A stretch of DNA of 30,320 bases from a virus (IMGVR_UViG_3300008339_000323:1-30320), one strand, 5' to 3'. Shown: positions 4,072 to 30,320, counted from the first letter of the stretch. The notes: generated from the letters alone by a model not told the origin. Program-made: numbers and translations.

Positions 4072-4298
4072 TGAGTTCTGTTATTAGAAAAATAAGTATA
4101 GGCACAGACTATAAAAATGAAGCTATGCATTACTCCGTAGGCCAAAACGTTTACGGGGGCCATGCAATATGTAATATTATATTTGACGATAATGATACAT
4201 CGTATAATATATATATTAAAAAAGAAGATGAAGTTATGCCATGGAAGAAGTTTAATTCTAATATGGCTATCTCAGTTGAATACGATTTAGAATATTAA
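4071..4298 (+). CDS. small conserved-type phage protein, 75 residues
   Basis: Translationally coupled on both sides by one-base TAATG overlaps. The protein has a mixed alpha/beta look, with RKISIGTDYKNEAMHYSVGQ, then GGHAICNIIFDDNDTSYNIY and a C-terminal PWKKFNSNMAISVEYDLEY. There is no signal peptide or membrane segment. I recall similar short proteins in the same position, before GroES-like and terminase genes, in Bacteroidetes phages, but without a known function. Tight coupling suggests it is needed in amounts similar to its neighbours. Confidence 0.65.
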   Translation: MSSVIRKISIGTDYKNEAMHYSVGQNVYGGHAICNIIFDDNDTSYNIYIKKEDEVMPWKKFNSNMAISVEYDLEY

Positions 4299-4906
4299 TG
4301 AGAAGTATATTTAGTTTTATTGTAAAACCAGTAGGCGAAAGATACAACAATAAAGTTAAGGTTGAGGATAAAGAACTAATAATCAATACTAAGATTGAAA
4401 GTTTTAAATCCGTAAATAATGTAGCAGAAGTTGTTGCAGTGCCTTTAGCTTATTCAACCGATATTAAAGTTGGAGATATAGTTGTAATTCATCATAATGT
4501 TTTTAGGGTATTTTATGATATAAGAGGAAATAAAAAAAATAGTAGATCATATTTTATGGATGATTTATATTTTTGTGATCTTGACCAAATATACCTATAT
4601 AAGAATACAGGTAAATGGAAAGCATTTGGAGACAGATGTTTTATTAAACCGATTAAGAATAAAGACTATTTAAACATAGCTAAAGAGCAAAGACTTATTG
4701 GTATATTAAAATACGGAAATAGCTCCTTAGAAGCGCTTAAAATAAACGAGGGAGACCTTGTTGGATATACTCCTTATGGAGAATTTGACTTTGTTATTGA
4801 TGGGCAAAGACTTTATTGTATGAAATCTAATGATATTGTAATTAAATATGGACATAAAGGAAACGAAACAGAATATAATCCAAGCTGGGCACAAAGCAGT
4901 TCTTGA
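4298..4906 (+). CDS. tandem GroES-like co-chaperonin-type protein
   Basis: This 202-residue protein appears to contain two GroES-like beta-barrels. Repeat 1 (about residues 6-102) has FIVKPVGERY, a flexible charged stretch at 20-40 where GroES has its mobile loop, VAEVVAVPLAYSTDIKVGD, and a closing strand ending LDQIYLY. Repeat 2 (about 112-185) repeats the plan: DRCFIKPI, IGILKYGN, LKINEGDLVGYTPYGEF, and RLYCMKSNDIVI. Canonical GroES is about 95 residues with one barrel. Some phages encode co-chaperonins (T4 gp31 is the known case) that let host GroEL fold capsid protein; an equivalent role here fits the placement just before the head genes. The mobile loop lacks an obvious canonical GroEL-binding IVL motif, so GroEL binding is uncertain. 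Its end overlaps the next gene by 59 bases. Confidence 0.65.
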   Translation: MRSIFSFIVKPVGERYNNKVKVEDKELIINTKIESFKSVNNVAEVVAVPLAYSTDIKVGDIVVIHHNVFRVFYDIRGNKKNSRSYFMDDLYFCDLDQIYLYKNTGKWKAFGDRCFIKPIKNKDYLNIAKEQRLIGILKYGNSSLEALKINEGDLVGYTPYGEFDFVIDGQRLYCMKSNDIVIKYGHKGNETEYNPSWAQSSS

Positions 4907-21216: not shown

Positions 21217-21624
21217 ATGGAATTAACAGTAAGAGCATTACAAGAATCAGATTGGGACACATTACAAGAATGGTGGACTAAATGGAATTGGCCACAAATG
21301 AATAAAGACCTGCTGCCACTAAATGGAACAGGCGGTTTAATTGTTTGCAAAGGTGATATACCAATAGTATCAGGTTTTTTATATTTAACAAATTCTAAGG
21401 TAGCTTGGATGGAATGGATTATATCAAACCAAGATTATAGGGAAGCGGATAGGAAAGAAGCATTGGAGATGTTAATACTCAGTTTAGAGGATGTGGCATT
21501 GAGTGTTGATAAGAATATAATATTAAGTGTTGGTAGAAACACGGGATTAATAGATATGCACAAAAAATTAGGGTATACAGTGGATGAAAAACCATCGTAT
21601 GAAATTTCAAAAAAATTAATATAA
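21217..21624 (+). CDS. GNAT-family N-acetyltransferase
   Basis: A compact 135-residue protein with the GNAT plan: an N-terminal strand-helix (LTVRALQESDWDTLQEWWTK), a central strand pair (GGLIVCKGDIPIVSGFLYLT), then SKVAWMEWIISNQDYREADR followed by the cofactor-binding helix (KEALEMLILSLEDVALSV). The C-terminal half has IILSVGRNTGLIDMHKKLGY, where GNATs place the last strand and helix. The canonical Q/R-x-x-G-x-G/A loop is not clean; 'YREADRKEA' occupies its place, so acetyl-CoA binding may be atypical. The substrate is unknown. Lying between tail and internal-protein genes, it may modify a virion or host protein. The next start is one base after its stop. Confidence 0.75.
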   Translation: MELTVRALQESDWDTLQEWWTKWNWPQMNKDLLPLNGTGGLIVCKGDIPIVSGFLYLTNSKVAWMEWIISNQDYREADRKEALEMLILSLEDVALSVDKNIILSVGRNTGLIDMHKKLGYTVDEKPSYEISKKLI

Positions 21625-21625
21625 T

Positions 21626-22354
21626 ATGGCAGTAGCAGCAGCAGTAGGGGCAGGAGTGTCAATAATAGGAGGAGCCGTAGGAGCTCATCAGGCTGGTCAA
21701 GCAGCCAAAGGAGCGCGTAATGATGCAAGACGCGCGAAGGCAGAAATGGATGCAATTAAAGCGGCAAGACAAGCTATAACTAATCCTTATGCAACAACAG
21801 TGGACGTGAGTGGATTAGCGAAGGATTTATCGGGAATGATAAATAATCCTTATGCAAATTTAGGGGTTGCTACACGGGCCGCAGAAATGGAATTTGAGCA
21901 AGCGGATATGGCATTAGCAAATACGTTAGATACATTGAGAGCAACTGGAGCAAGCGCGGGTGGAGCAACTGCATTGGCACAGGCTGCATTACAAAGCAAA
22001 AAAGGCATTGCCGCAAATATTGAACAACAAGAGGCGGCAAATGAAAAATTACGTGCTCAAGGTGAAATGGAGCGTAATCAAATGAAGATGGCAGAGCAAC
22101 AAAGATTGCAATCATTACAAATAAGCGAAGCGCAAAGAGTTCAAGCTGCTGAGGCTGCTGGAAAACAATTTATGTTTGCAGCACGTGAAGATAGAACTAA
22201 TGCTGATTTAGGGAGAGAAGCAGGAGCCTTAACTCAGGCAATGCAAAATCAAGCGTCTGCTCAAGCCGCTCAGGGAGCCGCATGGGGACAAGCTTTTAGT
22301 GCTGTTGGCAGCATTGCGGGGGCCGCTGCGGGAGGCGCCGGAAAAAAGGAGTAG
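21626..22354 (+). CDS. Ala/Gly-rich internal (ejection) virion protein
   Basis: A 242-residue protein with a Gly/Ala-rich hydrophobic N-terminus (AAAVGAGVSIIGGAVGAHQA), a long Gln/Ala/Glu helical body and a second Gly/Ala-rich hydrophobic end (AFSAVGSIAGAAAGGAGKK). Small-residue zippers at both ends and a coiled-coil centre fit the class of podovirus ejection proteins such as T7 gp14 or P22 gp7, which leave the head with DNA and help make the channel across the cell envelope. It heads a block of internal-protein-type genes and starts one base after the GNAT stop. Assignment is by composition and position. Confidence 0.7.
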   Translation: MAVAAAVGAGVSIIGGAVGAHQAGQAAKGARNDARRAKAEMDAIKAARQAITNPYATTVDVSGLAKDLSGMINNPYANLGVATRAAEMEFEQADMALANTLDTLRATGASAGGATALAQAALQSKKGIAANIEQQEAANEKLRAQGEMERNQMKMAEQQRLQSLQISEAQRVQAAEAAGKQFMFAAREDRTNADLGREAGALTQAMQNQASAQAAQGAAWGQAFSAVGSIAGAAAGGAGKKE

Positions 22355-22413: not shown

Positions 22414-23967
22414 ATGAGTGCATACGATAATCCAACAATAATAAAAGACGAATCCGCAATGGCTTGGGCGACAGGCTTTGCTGGTATAGGACAGTCTTTT
22501 GTTGAAAGTTATAAAACCGCTAAAAAAGAAAGAGAGGCAAAGGAAAAAGAAGAAAGATTAGAAGCTGAAAGAAAAGCAAAAGAAAATAGAGAATTAACGA
22601 TTAGTAGACAGAAATTTTATTCTGAAAATACTGCTAGGGCTAGCGAGGACGCCTCTAAAACTGGTGCTTCTCTTGACAAAGCAGGGGTAAAGCCAAATAT
22701 TGGAAAAGTGCTAGTAGATCTTCGTTTTAAAGGAGAAACTAAAAAAGGCGTATATAGAGAAAAAGCAACATTTGAAGTCCTTAAAACAGGGGAAGCGGAG
22801 GAAGCTGCAAAATTTACTGAAAATTTTGACAAATATTGGAGTGATTTAAATAAAATGGTGGGTGGTGGAGCATCGCAAATGCAGGCTATTGCCAACGGCG
22901 ACATTGGGAAAACTAACGCACAAAATATAGAATATATAGGAGATGATGACATTTCTCGTTTGCAAAGAGCCGTTATTAGTACTAAAGGATCCTCTGGACT
23001 AGTTAATGCAGATCTTATATATGATCTTGATAAATTAGAAGAAACTGGCATGAGTATTAATATGAGTACTCAAAATATAAGTAAAGAGGAACTGGAAAAT
23101 TATATTCGCGGAGTAAATCCAAATATTATAAGTGATAAAAATACATTACAAACTTTTATTGATAAAAATAGTGATGCAATACAAGCTAACAACGACGGCA
23201 CATATAATATTATATATAATCAAAAAGTAGATGGTGAAAAAACAGGAGAATTTTATGTTATTGTACCCGATGCTAAAAAAGAAAAGGATTTGCAAACGGC
23301 GGGCATTTACGATAATAAAGATCAACTACAAGAGTCATTCTTTAAAAGCCCTCAGTACGTTAAAGCTGAAGGAAATGCCGGTATATCCACAAGCGAAGCC
23401 ACTGTAAAAGTTCCAAAGCGAGAAATTGATATGACTATTGTTGATAAATTATTAACAAAACAAGTAAATGTAACGATTGAGGGATTACTTGCAACGGAAT
23501 TAGGAGACATGAATAAGCTGAGAGGATTCGGCAGGAAGATTGGAGCTTGGGGAGCTGGAACGGAAGCGGCTAAAGAATTTGTTAAAATGAATACTAAAGA
23601 TCAAGTAGACATGCTCTCAAAATATATAATAGATGGATATAGAGCTGATATTATGCGTGATAATAACATTAGATTTGACAAAAAAAATAATACATATTAT
23701 CAATTAGATGAAATGGCATTGAAAGAATTTGACACTAAGCAAAAAGGAACTACTACTGAAGATAAAAAAGCGGCTGAAAAGGAAGCAGAATGGCAAGGGG
23801 TATTAAAAACAATAAAAGATATTGAACTTGGGGATATTAAGGATATTAACTTTAACGGCAAAAAAGTAAGTTATGATCGCAAAAATTTTAGAGTATCTAC
23901 ATCTGGTGGTAATTTATTAAGAAAATTTGACACGAAGGAAGAGGTCATTGAGTATTTAAGACCCTGA
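22414..23967 (+). CDS. probable internal virion protein, 517 residues
   Basis: The N-terminus is followed by a highly charged helix at about residues 30-60 (KKEREAKEKEERLEAERKAK). The rest is mostly helical, with Asn/Lys-rich linkers and a short beta segment near residues 272-290. It ends GNLLRKFDTKEEVIEYLRP. There is no signal peptide, membrane segment or recognised catalytic motif. It ends TGATAA, two consecutive in-frame stops, in the same frame as the giant gene that begins 18 bases later. Its position between an ejection-type protein and the giant polyvalent-type protein suggests a second internal protein. I do not recognise a named family. Confidence 0.6.
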   Translation: MSAYDNPTIIKDESAMAWATGFAGIGQSFVESYKTAKKEREAKEKEERLEAERKAKENRELTISRQKFYSENTARASEDASKTGASLDKAGVKPNIGKVLVDLRFKGETKKGVYREKATFEVLKTGEAEEAAKFTENFDKYWSDLNKMVGGGASQMQAIANGDIGKTNAQNIEYIGDDDISRLQRAVISTKGSSGLVNADLIYDLDKLEETGMSINMSTQNISKEELENYIRGVNPNIISDKNTLQTFIDKNSDAIQANNDGTYNIIYNQKVDGEKTGEFYVIVPDAKKEKDLQTAGIYDNKDQLQESFFKSPQYVKAEGNAGISTSEATVKVPKREIDMTIVDKLLTKQVNVTIEGLLATELGDMNKLRGFGRKIGAWGAGTEAAKEFVKMNTKDQVDMLSKYIIDGYRADIMRDNNIRFDKKNNTYYQLDEMALKEFDTKQKGTTTEDKKAAEKEAEWQGVLKTIKDIELGDIKDINFNGKKVSYDRKNFRVSTSGGNLLRKFDTKEEVIEYLRP

Positions 23968-23985: not shown

Positions 23986-26900
23986 ATGCTAGAATACGAA
24001 TTAAACGGTAAAATATATACAGAAGCAGATTTAATTAAAATGGCCGGGGGTAAAGACAAACTCCCGGCTTATATTAAAAGTAAAGGTTTCAAGCCTGCTT
24101 CTAAAAAAACAAAGCAACCCGCTAAACTTGACGAAAGGTTTGGTGAGGATGTTTATAAAAAAACGTTTGGGTTTGAGAATCCTGCAAAAGATCAATTTTC
24201 TGAAATTAATAAAACTAAGAAGAAAAAACCTGTTGCTAAAAAATGGAATGAGGTAGTTACGTGGGAAGATCTTAAAGCTGAAGAAACAACTGTAGCGGAA
24301 AACCTTCAAAAAAGAGTAGCTAGATTTGGATTAACTCCTGAAGAAAAAGTTTTTGGAGTTAATAGAATTACACTTAGAGGGGATAAAAAACAACAATTAG
24401 AACATGTTGTGGATCCAAGCGGTATTTCAACAGGAATGTATGATTTACCAGAGGTTGTTGTAGGGGCAGACGCATCTAAAGAAGAACTTATAGCTAGTGC
24501 AAAAATATTAAATGACTATATAGGCAAATATGGTAATAAAGACTATATTCAGAAAGTTAAAAAAGAAAATCCAAATTTAGTAAGAGACGCTGAACAAAAA
24601 ATACAAGCTCCTACTAGGCCTTGGGAAACAAAAGTAAAAGAATATAACGAAGATTTAATAAACGAGTTTAAGAACAAAGAGGAGTCTATAAAAAGCCGTT
24701 TAAGAGCAAATAGTGGCTATATGTCTGCATCACAAAGAAAATACATTGATGCAGTAAAGCCAACTAAAAAAGATTTTGATAGTCCAGAAAAATATAATTT
24801 ATATGAATATTGGAAAAAGACAGGTCAAATACCGTTGCCTAGTGAGGTAAAATTAGAAAAGTTTATTAAGGAAAAAAACAATAATTATAGAGATAGTAAA
24901 TCAGCGGAATTAATGTCTGATGCTCCTCAAGAACAACGGACAATGTTGCTCGCCCTAGAATCGGAGCGTGAGGATAAAGCCATAGAAGGAAAAGTAAAAC
25001 TATCGGTAGAAAGTGATGAATTAGATAAAGCGGGTAAAGCTCTTAGTGAAAAAATAGCTAAATTCCAAAAAACGCCTCCTACTAAACAAGAATATGATGA
25101 AATTCAAAAAGAATATTTAGCATTACAAAATAGATCAAATGCATATAATAAAGAAGCATTAACACTTAATAGAGATTTCAATAATATTAAAGCAGTATCA
25201 GAAGCAGCATCAAAAGATTATAGTAGATTAAACCAAACTGGTACATTTTTAAAGCAAACTGGACTAGCTTTAGCAGGTGCGGCTGAGGATATACGTATTA
25301 GTACAAAGGCTTTTGAATTGGCACTTGCTCAATCGGTAGCCAATGGAGATTCATTTGGTGAAACATATACAAGAAATAAAAGTATACTTAAAGAAACTTT
25401 ATTAGATCCTATATATGGTGAGCAAAAAGCGGCTAGCAAAGAATTAGAATCTTACCAACGTGATTTACAAATTAAGGATATAAAGAGCATGAAAGATCTT
25501 GGCAGATGGGGAGCTGGGATTTTAACTCAAATGCCTTCGTCTATGGCTATGGCCGTTACAGGAGAAGCAGCATTGCCATTATTTTTTCTTAGTGGTTATG
25601 GTTCAAAACAATATGAAATTGCTAGTTTGCAGGAATCAGCTCTTAGTAGATTGCAATATAATGCTGATCAAATTAATAAAGGATTAGTTGCCGCAGAAGA
25701 TATGGCCGATGTGCAAAAGCAAATTGCCTCGGATAAAAAAACATTGAATATATCAGAAGGAACAAAGTTAACATCTCAAGTGTTAGCCGGTGCTGCAGAG
25801 GTATTATTAGAAAAGTATGGTACCTTAGGTATTATAAAACAAACTGATAATATACTTAGAGCTATACCTCCTCAAGAAATCAAACGCCAGTTAAAAGTTA
25901 TTGGTAAAGAAATGGGTAAATCTGCCGGTGTTGAATCGTGGACAGAGGGCCTAACTCAATTAGCTAATAACTTTGGAGATATTCATTTATTAGGACAAGA
26001 TAAAAACTATTTTGACGGTGTTCCAGATGCAATGGCTGGAGGAGCATTTATGGGTCCTGGATTCTCTGCAATGGGAGGAGCTGGAACAATAAGTAATAAT
26101 ATTACGAAAAGTGTTATTAGCGAACTTGCCACAAAAGAGGAATTTAAAGCAAGAAATAAAAAACTTGATGAAATAAAAAAACTTACTGGTTTAGATGATA
26201 TTACAGGACTAACAAAAAGAGAACTTAATAAATTAAAATTACAACCGCCTATTAAAAAGGCTGTAGAAGATCTTATTGATCAAATGGACGGAGATGATCT
26301 TCGTATATTAGATAGATTAGGCAAAGATTTTTCTATGGAGGATGCAAAAAAAGTAGGTGATTTTAATCAGAAATTAAGAAAAATAACAAGAGATTGGAAT
26401 GAAGCTAGTAAAACAGTTGGAATTGATGATGCTCAATTAAGATCATTAAAAGAATATTATCAAAAGCAATACAATGAAGTATTTGCCGCAAGAGAAGCAA
26501 TGCTTACCGACAAGCAATTAACTGGCAAAAATAAAAAAGAAAATGCTCAAAAAAGAATTACATTTGAAGCTACAGCTGGTTATAATTTATATAAAAGAAG
26601 ATTAACTAGAAAAACTTATCTTGAAAAACTGGCTGGATTTGATAAATTATCATCAGAAGAAAAACAAAGATATAATGATTTAGCATTGTTAGAATTAAAC
26701 CAAGACGCTACTATGGATCAATTATCTAATAAAGAGGTTGATAGTAAAGCTAGAGAATTGTATGCTGGAGAAGAAATTGGCAAACAATTAGATAGGGATA
26801 TTCAAGCTGCTAATGATTTTTCAACAGAATTAGGGCTAAATATAAAAATTGAAACAATAAATAGCGAAAAAGAATTATTAGAAAAATATGGTAAATTTAT

Positions 26901-29900
26901 AGATGAAGAAGAATTAAAAGATTTTAAAAATGGAAAAACAAATGGGTTTAATATAGATGATAATACATTGGTAGTATATAAACCAAACGCTATTAAAAAC
27001 GGGCATACAAGTACTGGATCACATGAGGTATTGCATACTGTACTGTCTAAAGCTTTTCAAGGCAATCAAGAGGAGGCAAATAAAAACGGTATAAAATTAC
27101 TTGAATATTTAAAAACAGCACAGCCATCACTTTATGCGGCAGTAGAAGAAAGAATGAAAGCTTACAAGCCTGAGTACAAAGCTTATGGGGAAGAAGTATT
27201 TAATGCCCTTTCAGATTCTTTTAGTGATGGAAAAATACCAAATGACGATGTATTTACCCAAATATCCAAAGTAGTTAATAAAATAACTAAAGGAGCGTTT
27301 GGAACATCTTCAACATATGATATTAAAAATATTAGCACGGATTCCGGGAAAGCTTTATTTGATACAATAAAAGCATATAGTCAGAAAGCCGGGGCTAAAA
27401 GAACTAAGTCCGGTCAAAATATAAGATTTATTAATTCTGATACAGAAGATAAAGCTGCGGAAGAAACTCCCGCTACTGGATTTAAAGCGTCAAAAGCAAA
27501 AGTTGCTGAGGTCCAAAAAAAGATAGATAATTTAGAAGATCAATTAGATAAAGGAGAAATTGATTATGAAGACTATGAAAGTAGACTTGAAATATTTGAG
27601 GCAGATTTAGCAAAAGCAAAATTAATGCCTGAAGAAGCGCCAAAACCAACAATTAAAAAAGAAGTTACAGAAGAAGAAGCAGATAAAGAAATAATAAAAA
27701 ATGAAAGAGGCTCTATATCTTCTGATAAAGTTCAAAGAATATATGAAGAAAAAGGAGTAAATGGAGCTCAAGAGATTATAGATCTATTTAAACCTATTAC
27801 TAAAAAATTAGTAAATAAAAGAATGGACGCTCCTGGTTTTGATAGAGAATTGTTAACAAGCGAAATAGAAACTGGGGACGGTGGCCTTTTCTATCTTATT
27901 AGAAGTTATAAGCCTGAAACAGGAGTGCCTTTAGCGGCTTATATAAATAAACAATTACCATTAAGAGCAATTGCTGCATCAAGAAGAGTATTAGACAAAG
28001 ACTTTAGTAAAGACGTTACAGAAGAAAAAGGTTTAATAGCCGAAGAAACTGTTTCTGAGGCAAAAGAAAAGCCAAAATATAAGAATGCATTAGAATCAAA
28101 TGTTTTTAGCCCAGAGATCTTAAAAACAGCTACAAACAAGATAGTAACAATAGTTAGAACACTAAAAAATAGAATTGATGCTCCTGTTACATTAAATAGA
28201 ACTGTAACTCCATTAATTTCTGAAATAAGAGACGAAGTTGGGAAACAATTAGACATTGATATAAAGACAATGCTTGGAGGCAAAAAAGACGGTGTGCTTA
28301 GAAAAGAGTTATTAAGGAATAAACGTTATATCCTTGAAAATATGACCACCACTTGGTTAATGGGTAAAGATGGACAAGGAGGCATACCACAAGCTATTCA
28401 AAAACAAATTGATGGTAAATGGGTTAGTTATCCTGATTGGGTTGGTCAAAAAATTGATAGAGAAAAAACAACTACAGATCAAGCGGGGAGAACTTCTGGA
28501 GCAGAACTAGTTAGACGTTTGCCTAATGTTAATAATAATGTTTCTAATGAAGATTTTTTAGCGCAAATAATAGGGCCTGACGGTAATCCGATTAGAGGCA
28601 GAAAAGAATCAGTGTCAAAAGCAATGGCAGAAGAAGGGGCTTTTGACATTATTAATGATGACCTTGCTAAAGAAGGGCCGATATTCGAAGCTCTTGTTAC
28701 TAATCAAGAAAGATTAGGTTATGAAGTGACTAATGCTTTTGCTGTTGAAATAGCCAGACAATCTGAAAGAGGTAATATTAAATTTTCTAAAACGGGTATA
28801 AGAGCAATAGACAATATATCAAATGAGTTTAATGATTTTTATAAAAATCTAAATTATACAAATAGAGCATCGGTATTTAATTATTTAAATAGTAAAGATG
28901 TAAAAGTAATTGATAATGATATAAAAAATAAATTAGAAGATATATTAGAAAGATGGAAAACTGCATATGTTAATAATTCCAAAGAATTATTGTCTAAGTT
29001 AATTGCAAAAAAAAATAAAGAATTAAAAGATAAATATCCTAAAGTAGAAGATTTTGATGAATACTTTTCTAAAAAATTAGAAATTGCAGGAACATCTAAA
29101 ACTATGGCATTAGGGCTTACTCCAAAAGGATTAGACTTTGCCAAAAATAATCAAGAAAAAATTAATGAAATAAATAATTTTATAATAAGTGATTTAGAAA
29201 AGGATTTAAATAATGATGAATTAAGCGATTTAGAAAAAACTAATAAAGTAAATACTTTTTTAAGAACATATAGAGCTGTTCTTACGGGTGGTGATAAAGG
29301 AAAAAATTTTTATTTATCAAATACAAAATTATTTGATGAATTATTAAAAATTGATGGTTTTAAAAAATTAGGATATAATCTAAAAAAAGTTGGTAATATA
29401 AGCATAATTGTTGACAAGAATGGGGAAAATACAAATTATATTGAGGGTCAAACAACAAAAAGTAAAGATTTTGATGATATATTTTTAAAAGGATTAAATA
29501 TAATTGGCAATAAAAAAATTAGAGATGCCCAAAGCGAACAATCTGTAACCGATGTAATGGCTTTTGCAGAAAAAATTAAAAATTCCACACTCTCGCCCGA
29601 AGCTAAGGCTATGGCGGCTATACTTATGGGATCTAGCACCTATTCACCATTAAGAACATTAGCAAAAGTTGATTCTGTTATATTAGATGAAAATTTAACA
29701 AAAGCAGAGGAGTATACCTGGGAACATGCAATCCCGGCTGATGAAAGTGTTAGAGCTGTATTATCTTATATATTAGACCTGCCATTTGCAAACAGACCTA
29801 TTATAACTAAAGAAAATTTAAAAAAATTTTTAGAAGAAAGTAAAATATCATTATTACCTACTCATATTAATGATGTATTAAATACCATACTTAAAAGCAG

Positions 29901-30320
29901 AATGCCATTAAGTTGGAAACCTGGAGATGATATATATAATGCCAGATATTTTGATGGAAAAGTATTAAATGCGCTAAAAGCAAATGGTATTGATTTAAGA
30001 GGAAAAGATTTAACAATCCTAAATGGAAAAGGCAAAAAGATTAAAAAAATTAATTTCGAAGCAAGGAAAAACGCATTAAATATTAGTAATAGTCAAGAGG
30101 CAACTATAAAATCTTTAAAACCTTCTAAATCTGTAAAAGGTATATCTGTTTTTGATTTTGATGACACTGTTGGATTAACAAAAGGTAGTGTGCTATACAC
30201 AATGCCAAACGATCTGCCAATTTATCACGGCGCTCCTAAAGGAAAAGATGTTACAAAAATTAGTGACAAGGGAGTTAAGTTTTTTGCTACGGATATAAGA
30301 GAAGCAGATGAGTATGCTAG
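23986..30320 (+). CDS. giant polyvalent-type virion protein (3' end outside window)
   Basis: I read this frame codon by codon from the ATG at 23986 to the window edge and found no stop, giving at least 2111 residues. An in-frame TAA at 23968 bars an upstream start. The N-terminus is LEYELNGKIYTEADLIKM. Residues 506-545 and 646-695 have Gly/Ala/Met-rich hydrophobic stretches that could insert in membranes. A zincin site HEVLH is at 1013-1017, with E1069/E1070 as possible third ligands. Coiled coil is likely at about 1160-1215. Residues 1270-1350 (SYKPETGVPLAAYINKQLPL) resemble sigma-70 region 2. Residues 2057-2061 are DFDDT, HAD motif I. From about 2079, PIYHGAPKGKDVTK and FFATDIREADEYA look like the start of an ADP-ribosyltransferase fold. 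This is the domain style of phage polyvalent proteins, thought to be packaged and delivered into hosts. Residue activity is inferred, not shown. Confidence 0.8.
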   Translation, partial: MLEYELNGKIYTEADLIKMAGGKDKLPAYIKSKGFKPASKKTKQPAKLDERFGEDVYKKTFGFENPAKDQFSEINKTKKKKPVAKKWNEVVTWEDLKAEETTVAENLQKRVARFGLTPEEKVFGVNRITLRGDKKQQLEHVVDPSGISTGMYDLPEVVVGADASKEELIASAKILNDYIGKYGNKDYIQKVKKENPNLVRDAEQKIQAPTRPWETKVKEYNEDLINEFKNKEESIKSRLRANSGYMSASQRKYIDAVKPTKKDFDSPEKYNLYEYWKKTGQIPLPSEVKLEKFIKEKNNNYRDSKSAELMSDAPQEQRTMLLALESEREDKAIEGKVKLSVESDELDKAGKALSEKIAKFQKTPPTKQEYDEIQKEYLALQNRSNAYNKEALTLNRDFNNIKAVSEAASKDYSRLNQTGTFLKQTGLALAGAAEDIRISTKAFELALAQSVANGDSFGETYTRNKSILKETLLDPIYGEQKAASKELESYQRDLQIKDIKSMKDLGRWGAGILTQMPSSMAMAVTGEAALPLFFLSGYGSKQYEIASLQESALSRLQYNADQINKGLVAAEDMADVQKQIASDKKTLNISEGTKLTSQVLAGAAEVLLEKYGTLGIIKQTDNILRAIPPQEIKRQLKVIGKEMGKSAGVESWTEGLTQLANNFGDIHLLGQDKNYFDGVPDAMAGGAFMGPGFSAMGGAGTISNNITKSVISELATKEEFKARNKKLDEIKKLTGLDDITGLTKRELNKLKLQPPIKKAVEDLIDQMDGDDLRILDRLGKDFSMEDAKKVGDFNQKLRKITRDWNEASKTVGIDDAQLRSLKEYYQKQYNEVFAAREAMLTDKQLTGKNKKENAQKRITFEATAGYNLYKRRLTRKTYLEKLAGFDKLSSEEKQRYNDLALLELNQDATMDQLSNKEVDSKARELYAGEEIGKQLDRDIQAANDFSTELGLNIKIETINSEKELLEKYGKFIDEEELKDFKNGKTNGFNIDDNTLVVYKPNAIKNGHTSTGSHEVLHTVLSKAFQGNQEEANKNGIKLLEYLKTAQPSLYAAVEERMKAYKPEYKAYGEEVFNALSDSFSDGKIPNDDVFTQISKVVNKITKGAFGTSSTYDIKNISTDSGKALFDTIKAYSQKAGAKRTKSGQNIRFINSDTEDKAAEETPATGFKASKAKVAEVQKKIDNLEDQLDKGEIDYEDYESRLEIFEADLAKAKLMPEEAPKPTIKKEVTEEEADKEIIKNERGSISSDKVQRIYEEKGVNGAQEIIDLFKPITKKLVNKRMDAPGFDRELLTSEIETGDGGLFYLIRSYKPETGVPLAAYINKQLPLRAIAASRRVLDKDFSKDVTEEKGLIAEETVSEAKEKPKYKNALESNVFSPEILKTATNKIVTIVRTLKNRIDAPVTLNRTVTPLISEIRDEVGKQLDIDIKTMLGGKKDGVLRKELLRNKRYILENMTTTWLMGKDGQGGIPQAIQKQIDGKWVSYPDWVGQKIDREKTTTDQAGRTSGAELVRRLPNVNNNVSNEDFLAQIIGPDGNPIRGRKESVSKAMAEEGAFDIINDDLAKEGPIFEALVTNQERLGYEVTNAFAVEIARQSERGNIKFSKTGIRAIDNISNEFNDFYKNLNYTNRASVFNYLNSKDVKVIDNDIKNKLEDILERWKTAYVNNSKELLSKLIAKKNKELKDKYPKVEDFDEYFSKKLEIAGTSKTMALGLTPKGLDFAKNNQEKINEINNFIISDLEKDLNNDELSDLEKTNKVNTFLRTYRAVLTGGDKGKNFYLSNTKLFDELLKIDGFKKLGYNLKKVGNISIIVDKNGENTNYIEGQTTKSKDFDDIFLKGLNIIGNKKIRDAQSEQSVTDVMAFAEKIKNSTLSPEAKAMAAILMGSSTYSPLRTLAKVDSVILDENLTKAEEYTWEHAIPADESVRAVLSYILDLPFANRPIITKENLKKFLEESKISLLPTHINDVLNTILKSRMPLSWKPGDDIYNARYFDGKVLNALKANGIDLRGKDLTILNGKGKKIKKINFEARKNALNISNSQEATIKSLKPSKSVKGISVFDFDDTVGLTKGSVLYTMPNDLPIYHGAPKGKDVTKISDKGVKFFATDIREADEYA

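Follow-up and report, generated by a model that had tools for sequence, protein, structure and literature searches.

A giant, cysteine-free candidate ejection protein with polyvalent-type domains in a podovirus related to Cellulophaga and Flavobacterium phages

The late operon of the virus studied here ends with a giant gene. Its product is most aptly placed in a new family of polyvalent ejection proteins, its sigma-like segment taking the place of the RNA polymerase found in the N4 counterpart. This protein is quite probably the largest of three ejection proteins, carrying exchangeable enzyme modules that would act on the host, and this explanation accounts best for the observations set out below.

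The virus and its giant gene

The stretch of DNA analysed (hereafter the window), a linear fragment from IMG/VR, is 30,320 bp long. The TerL, portal and major structural proteins of the window match PHROGs families, and the major structural protein is 40–50% identical to those of Elemovirus, Maribacter phage Panino and an uncultured podovirus; Cellulophaga phages also appear among its matches. By its sequence, the virus is a podovirus related to the Cellulophaga phages phi18:3 and phi38:1 and to Flavobacterium Elemovirus, and its host is probably a member of Bacteroidota. The gene order is as in Pervagoviridae and Pachyviridae, where the structural genes are followed by a small ejection gene, a medium ejection gene and a giant gene; genes on the opposite strand come after the giant gene where downstream sequence exists (L003 and phi38:1).

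The window also encodes a GroES-like co-chaperonin (4298–4906), which lies upstream of the terminase in a position conserved in isolated relatives, some of which contain GroEL too. A small ORF (1721–2035) contains an HExxH stretch (HEKVH) and is perhaps a separate small metallopeptidase, while the 135-aa gene directly before the ejection genes (21217–21624) matches the acetyltransferase-like phrog_17252, a gene of similar size being found at this position in several relatives.

The giant ORF is the final ORF of the window, with 2111 open codons at 23986–30318 on the plus strand, and the part inside the window (23986–30320) encodes residues 1–2111 of 3293, as the frame leaves the window. The downstream sequence, which the first-pass annotation had proposed to obtain, is provided by contig L003/L018, which shares 100% identity with the window over a 16,335-bp overlap and in which the frame closes at 3293 aa (L003:10001–19882); the frame of at least 2111 residues claimed at first is thus borne out, the full length being even larger. 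The first two relatives identified are of 3293 and 3154 aa (85% and 81% identity, respectively), and further scans revealed giants of 2051–3323 aa on about 28 different contigs, nearly all of which are single frames. A stop or frameshift in other isolates, regarded at the outset as contrary evidence, was found in L017 and L005, while the other complete records are single frames. The L017 giant consists of two frames overlapping at L017:15919–15976, near residue 1991 and just before the HAD domain, and this split may be either real or an assembly error; the L005 chain stops early, near the end of its contig.

Searches of the whole giant against Pfam, PHROGs and NCBIfam gave no family above cut-off, and tblastn of the window protein, a divergent C-terminus or the HAD domain alone against phage records gave either no match or one non-significant match. 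No relative of the giant was found in sequenced bacterial genomes, and there is thus no sign of a prophage. Structure prediction and profile searches had likewise been proposed. The confidence of the AlphaFold2 models of giant segments is low (pLDDT 61 and 68 on average), and Foldseek with both models gave no significant fold match, with enrichments only, of sigma factors for one model and of GNAT-type acetyltransferases for the other. PDB profile searches with the zincin, the HAD domain, the domain at residues 1360–1602 and the C-terminal frame returned nothing useful.

The ejection-protein trio and the exclusion of cysteine

The first-pass annotation placed the giant directly after two internal-virion-type genes, and this holds, as both have syntenic counterparts in phi18:3 detected by MS/MS. 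The 242-aa protein in the gp14 position (21626–22354, plus strand) has a hydrophobic N-terminus, shares weak blastp similarity with Gundel gp72 (1.4e-4) and phi38:1 gp99 (0.001) in a small database, and is syntenic with phi18:3 gp120. The 517-aa protein in the gp15 position (22414–23967, plus strand) corresponds to phi18:3 gp121 by position only, as comparison with its counterparts gave no significant sequence match. In phi18:3, gp120, gp121 and gp123, the counterparts of the trio, are annotated as virion proteins on the basis of 'experimental MS/MS proteomics'.

The giant possesses a conserved N-terminal core (residues 480–760; 25423–26265, plus strand), which is common to virion proteins of isolated phages and contains a hydrophobic stretch at residues 516–536 according to hydropathy. 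As aligned by hhalign, the region preceding the zincin matches elemoF gp18 of Elemovirus (1.3e-13), Gundel gp74 (8.5e-11), phi18:3 gp123 (3.7e-8), phi38:1 gp101 (2e-7) and Panino (8.9e-7), with reversed decoys at 0.16 or higher. Only this N-terminal region is shared by phi18:3 gp123, from which the HExxH and HAD motifs are absent. The podoviral ejection set, in which the giant takes the gp16/gp50 position, is represented by three genes together with a virion-packaged homologue.

The giant contains no cysteine among its 3293 residues, and none is found in either upstream ejection protein (242 and 517 aa). The giant family contains 0 cysteines in 79,878 residues (29 proteins), versus 15.2 per 1000 in the downstream (early-side) genes of the same phages, a frequency which would predict about 50 cysteines in the giant (probability of zero, about 2e-22); as the relatives share descent, the family total is not convertible to one probability. 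The trios of phi18:3 and phi38:1 contain no cysteine, six giants of other phages contain 1 in 15,490 residues, and the exchangeable modules within the giant frame are also cysteine-free. Among the controls, N4 gp50, gp51 and gp52 contain 0 cysteines in 4294 residues versus 8.4 per 1000 elsewhere in N4, T7 gp15 and gp16 contain none while gp14 contains one, and the cargo of crAss001 has 0.94 versus 11.6 cysteines per 1000. Two papers describe the N4-like virion RNA polymerases as cysteine-free and connect this with their route across tail and periplasm (PMC3715699, PMC3915230). Taken with these controls and reports, the absence of cysteine independently supports the ejection of the giant, and suggests that cysteine exclusion could become a sequence-only test for ejected proteins. 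From the homology with gp123, the lack of cysteine that the giant has in common with known ejected proteins, and a gene order resembling gp14-gp15-gp16, we infer that the giant is very probably packed in the particle and then ejected into the cell, a reading that is well supported.

Enzyme-like domains and exchangeable modules

The zincin-like metallopeptidase domain (residues 920–1160; 26743–27465, plus strand) contains the motif HEVLH (residues 1013–1017; 27022–27036), followed by a conserved Glu pair (27190–27195). All 35 relatives or loci carry the HExxH motif, for which composition shuffles give a probability of 0.0028 per protein, and the Glu after it is conserved. The order of helices and strands in the AlphaFold2 model of this segment fits the published polyvalent zincin core (PMC5512222), where the HExxH helix is followed by a small beta sheet and then by a Glu on the following helix, and one relative (L061) matches Peptidase_M78 (E=0.018). 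The initial identification of an HExxH zincin is upheld by this conservation and by the matching predicted secondary structure.

The HAD domain begins at 30118–30207 (plus strand) with motif I, FDFDDT (residue 2056; 30151–30168), and continues on the far side of the ART insert, outside the window, where motifs II (LTAR, residue 2273), III (K2311) and IV (DD, residues 2330–2331) are located. All four motifs, DxD(T), T, K and DD, occur in order and are invariant in 9 relatives, confirming the HAD-like motif first noted, and relative L057 matches TIGR01509 (HAD-IA) at E=0.0019, which is below the cut-off of that family.

The HAD domain is interrupted between motif I and the remainder by an ART-PolyVal-like insert (residues 2075–2216), which starts at 30208–30320 (plus strand), where the window ends after the first 37 residues of the insert. 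PF18760 is the sole Pfam match (E=0.011 for this giant, while relatives reach 1.6e-4 and 3.9e-4) and the sole family match in three relatives, with a best score of 22.9 bits versus a curated cut-off of 31.2. H2081 and the aspartate in SY[NS]DG are invariant in four sequences, while the position of the strand-2 tyrosine, as read by eye, seems to be phenylalanine (KFFATD). The ART-like domain proposed in the first-pass annotation is supported by this similarity to PF18760, at a score below the curated cut-off. Only four of the records examined carry the ART insert, and other relatives lack it at the same position of the HAD domain; ART activity as the core function of the giant was rejected, as an optional insert of few members cannot be the core function.

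Comparison among the relatives indicates that the modules between the conserved parts, which are HAD, ART, GNAT-like and nuclease-like, are exchanged. Slot 1 (28792–30117, plus strand), which lies after the conserved domain and ahead of the helical C-terminus, is occupied here by an 'EHxxP' module (EHAIP, 29722–29736), which is also present in many relatives. In L037, L042, L044, L046, L055 and L056 it is replaced by nuclease-like segments, in which patterns resembling PD-(D/E)XK can be read, such as NPDLVY...VIVELKAD in L046 and KPDLVF...IVVELKSS in L042; this reading was made from motifs by eye and has no Pfam support. An optional GNAT acetyltransferase-like module is located at residues ~2340–2527 (weak fold matches). 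Slot 2 of L042 (residues 1985–2364, 380 aa) apparently contains the GNAT-like module in two diverged copies. The module borders are accompanied by a short motif. The giant contains three [KR]FS motifs, of which IKFSK (28777–28791, plus strand) comes first and the others lie at residues 2358 and 2547. In 28 giants, [ILV][KR]FS[KLRS] was seen 42 times versus 1.6 expected, and 40 of the 42 lie within 30 residues of a module border; as the motif itself helped to set the borders for two of the five junction types, and copies inherited from common ancestors raise the count, this enrichment is suggestive only. The motif could represent a site of cleavage, a hinge or the scar of a past recombination.

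These domains bear on whether the giant is a purely mechanical ejection protein like T7 gp16, which would help to build a trans-envelope channel with enzyme-like domains that are decayed or needed for assembly only. This reading is improbable but deserves consideration, as the N-terminal homology includes smaller relatives without the zincin and HAD motifs (phi18:3 gp123, 1935 aa; phi38:1 gp101, 1691 aa) and the AlphaFold2 model shows a long helical C-terminus. However, the HExxH motif and its Glu, the acidic HAD motifs and the ART His and Asp are all conserved, and in some relatives a module gives way to one of another enzyme type, as would be expected of selected cargo more than of decay. 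It is decidedly unlikely that the zincin is a head-maturation protease, with the giant acting mainly in the producing cell or head rather than in the next host. The late-operon position of the gene would agree with such a role, as would phage P1 DdrB, which is thought to be processed before packaging (PMC5512222), but neither the chain, over its whole length, nor either partner contains cysteine, in which they resemble ejected proteins, and the N4 vRNAP, also with a zincin-type motif, is ejected full length.

The sigma-like segment, proposed action and known systems

The sigma region-2-like segment (residues 1230–1359; 27673–28062, plus strand) has its core at residues ~1262–1340 (27769–28005). 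With a 22-sequence profile of this segment, the best five PDB matches are all sigma factors (E 0.056–0.24), and Foldseek with its model places many sigma factors in the top 50, at E 0.49 or worse and none significant; each match is below significance singly, while sequence profile and fold point the same way. The family Sigma70_r2 (PF04542) has no match in the giants, but matches separate ORFs of 255–286 codons in 11 of 28 records. Complete separate sigma-70-type genes of about 255 aa, above the Pfam cut-off, are located in the early-side region of the record of L024 (G001:C1:54443–54667) and of 10 more records, and the presence of such a gene implies that these phages probably use the host RNA polymerase. 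As compared with the separate sigma factor of the phage, the segment of the giant scores 0.0024 by hmmsearch (in a set of 8) and 0.047 by hhalign. Profile and fold comparison both point towards the sigma-70 region-2-like segment noted at first, while membership of PF04542 fails; the case for a sigma region-2-like identity of residues ~1262–1340 is weak but convergent, and the giant is at most a putative sigma factor.

The adjoining domain (residues 1360–1602; 28063–28791, plus strand) is highly conserved, and has neither a match among PDB profiles nor a known relative. A hidden virion RNA polymerase of the N4 or crAss-like kind, on which the sigma-like segment would confer specificity, is very unlikely, even though this domain is without known fold and the giant resembles N4 gp50 in size, position, zincin and absence of cysteine. 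The polymerase motif DxDxD is absent from the giant, no RNA polymerase family in Pfam, PHROGs or NCBIfam matches it, RNA_pol (PF00940) gave no match in 28 records, though the control was likewise silent, and a separate phage sigma factor suits use of the host RNA polymerase. The giant is not an N4-type virion RNA polymerase, as no polymerase domain was found, although the absence of cysteine would fit one. Chance motifs in a long low-complexity frame, which would agree with the lack of a Pfam family above cut-off, hardly merit consideration, as they are contradicted by conservation across about 28 contigs, the low HExxH probability in shuffles and coherent profile matches.

As an ejection protein carrying enzyme modules, the giant would be synthesized late, packaged into the head together with the two proteins encoded upstream, and expelled in an unfolded state through the tail and envelope, before or with the DNA. 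Its conserved frame, comprising the N-terminal membrane-type region, the zincin, the sigma-2-like segment, the domain at residues 1360–1602 and the helical C-terminus, would carry HAD, ART, GNAT-like and nuclease-like modules that can be exchanged. After ejection, the giant would cleave itself and act on the host: cleavage is probably by the zincin, plausibly close to the [ILV][KR]FS junctions, after which the sigma-2-like piece would act on the host RNA polymerase and other pieces on proteins, nucleotides or nucleic acids. Speculatively, a sigma-like segment arriving with the DNA could act before the separate sigma gene is expressed. In the first-pass annotation, the injected package was to disable or reprogramme the host ahead of phage transcription; of this, a polyvalent-type protein in the ejection slot is supported, while the effect on the host is putative. 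A more elaborate version, tentative and rather doubtful as a whole, is that a pre-made sigma-like factor is injected instead of a polymerase, that the zincin frees the sigma-2-like segment (with residues 1360–1602) at the [ILV][KR]FS junctions, and that this piece redirects or blocks the host RNA polymerase until the phage sigma factor is expressed, the swappable modules serving for particular hosts. If true, the preferred explanation would make this virus a tangible and testable example of the delivery of preformed tools for host control at a time when none of the viral genes has yet been read; as isolated relatives with analysed virions exist, delivery and cleavage of the giant are directly testable.

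Among the closest known systems are phi18:3 gp123, phi38:1 gp101, Gundel gp74 and Elemovirus gp18, which share the genome position, a homologous N-terminal region and the absence of cysteine. HExxH is present in the Gundel and Elemovirus giants and absent in those of phi18:3 and phi38:1, and in gp74 of the Tenacibaculum phage Gundel the similarity extends to part of the C-terminal frame; none of the four proteins was seen to contain the sigma-like, HAD or ART modules. T7 gp14-gp15-gp16 is similar in organization, being an ejection set in small-medium-large order with gp15 and gp16 free of cysteine, but T7 gp16 carries a peptidoglycan enzyme rather than effector modules. The crAss001 cargo gp45–gp50 is also large, cysteine-poor and ejected by a short-tailed Bacteroidota phage, but consists of RNA-polymerase-associated proteins encoded by different genes; some crAss-like giants carry a PD-(D/E)XK domain (PMC7886860).

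N4 gp50 of Schitoviridae, with gp51 and gp52, resembles the giant by features, which are a length of ~3300–3500 residues, a three-gene ejection set, an HExxH domain, a large helical C-terminal part and no cysteine, whereas the giant has a sigma-like segment and exchangeable enzymes, with no RNA polymerase detected. The polyvalent proteins of phages and conjugative elements (Iyer et al. 2017, PMC5512222) are likewise multi-domain, encoded beside virion genes and predicted to be co-injected, with a zincin hub domain and ART-PolyVal, and the original designation of the giant as a polyvalent-type protein is sustained, with several disparate domains beside virion genes and in an ejection-protein slot. 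Unlike them, it contains a sigma-2-like segment, a HAD domain with a nested ART and a recurring junction motif; a word search of that paper gave no 'sigma', and 'HAD' only as a verb in the passages listed. The giant family links the polyvalent effectors with the giant ejected virion polymerases.
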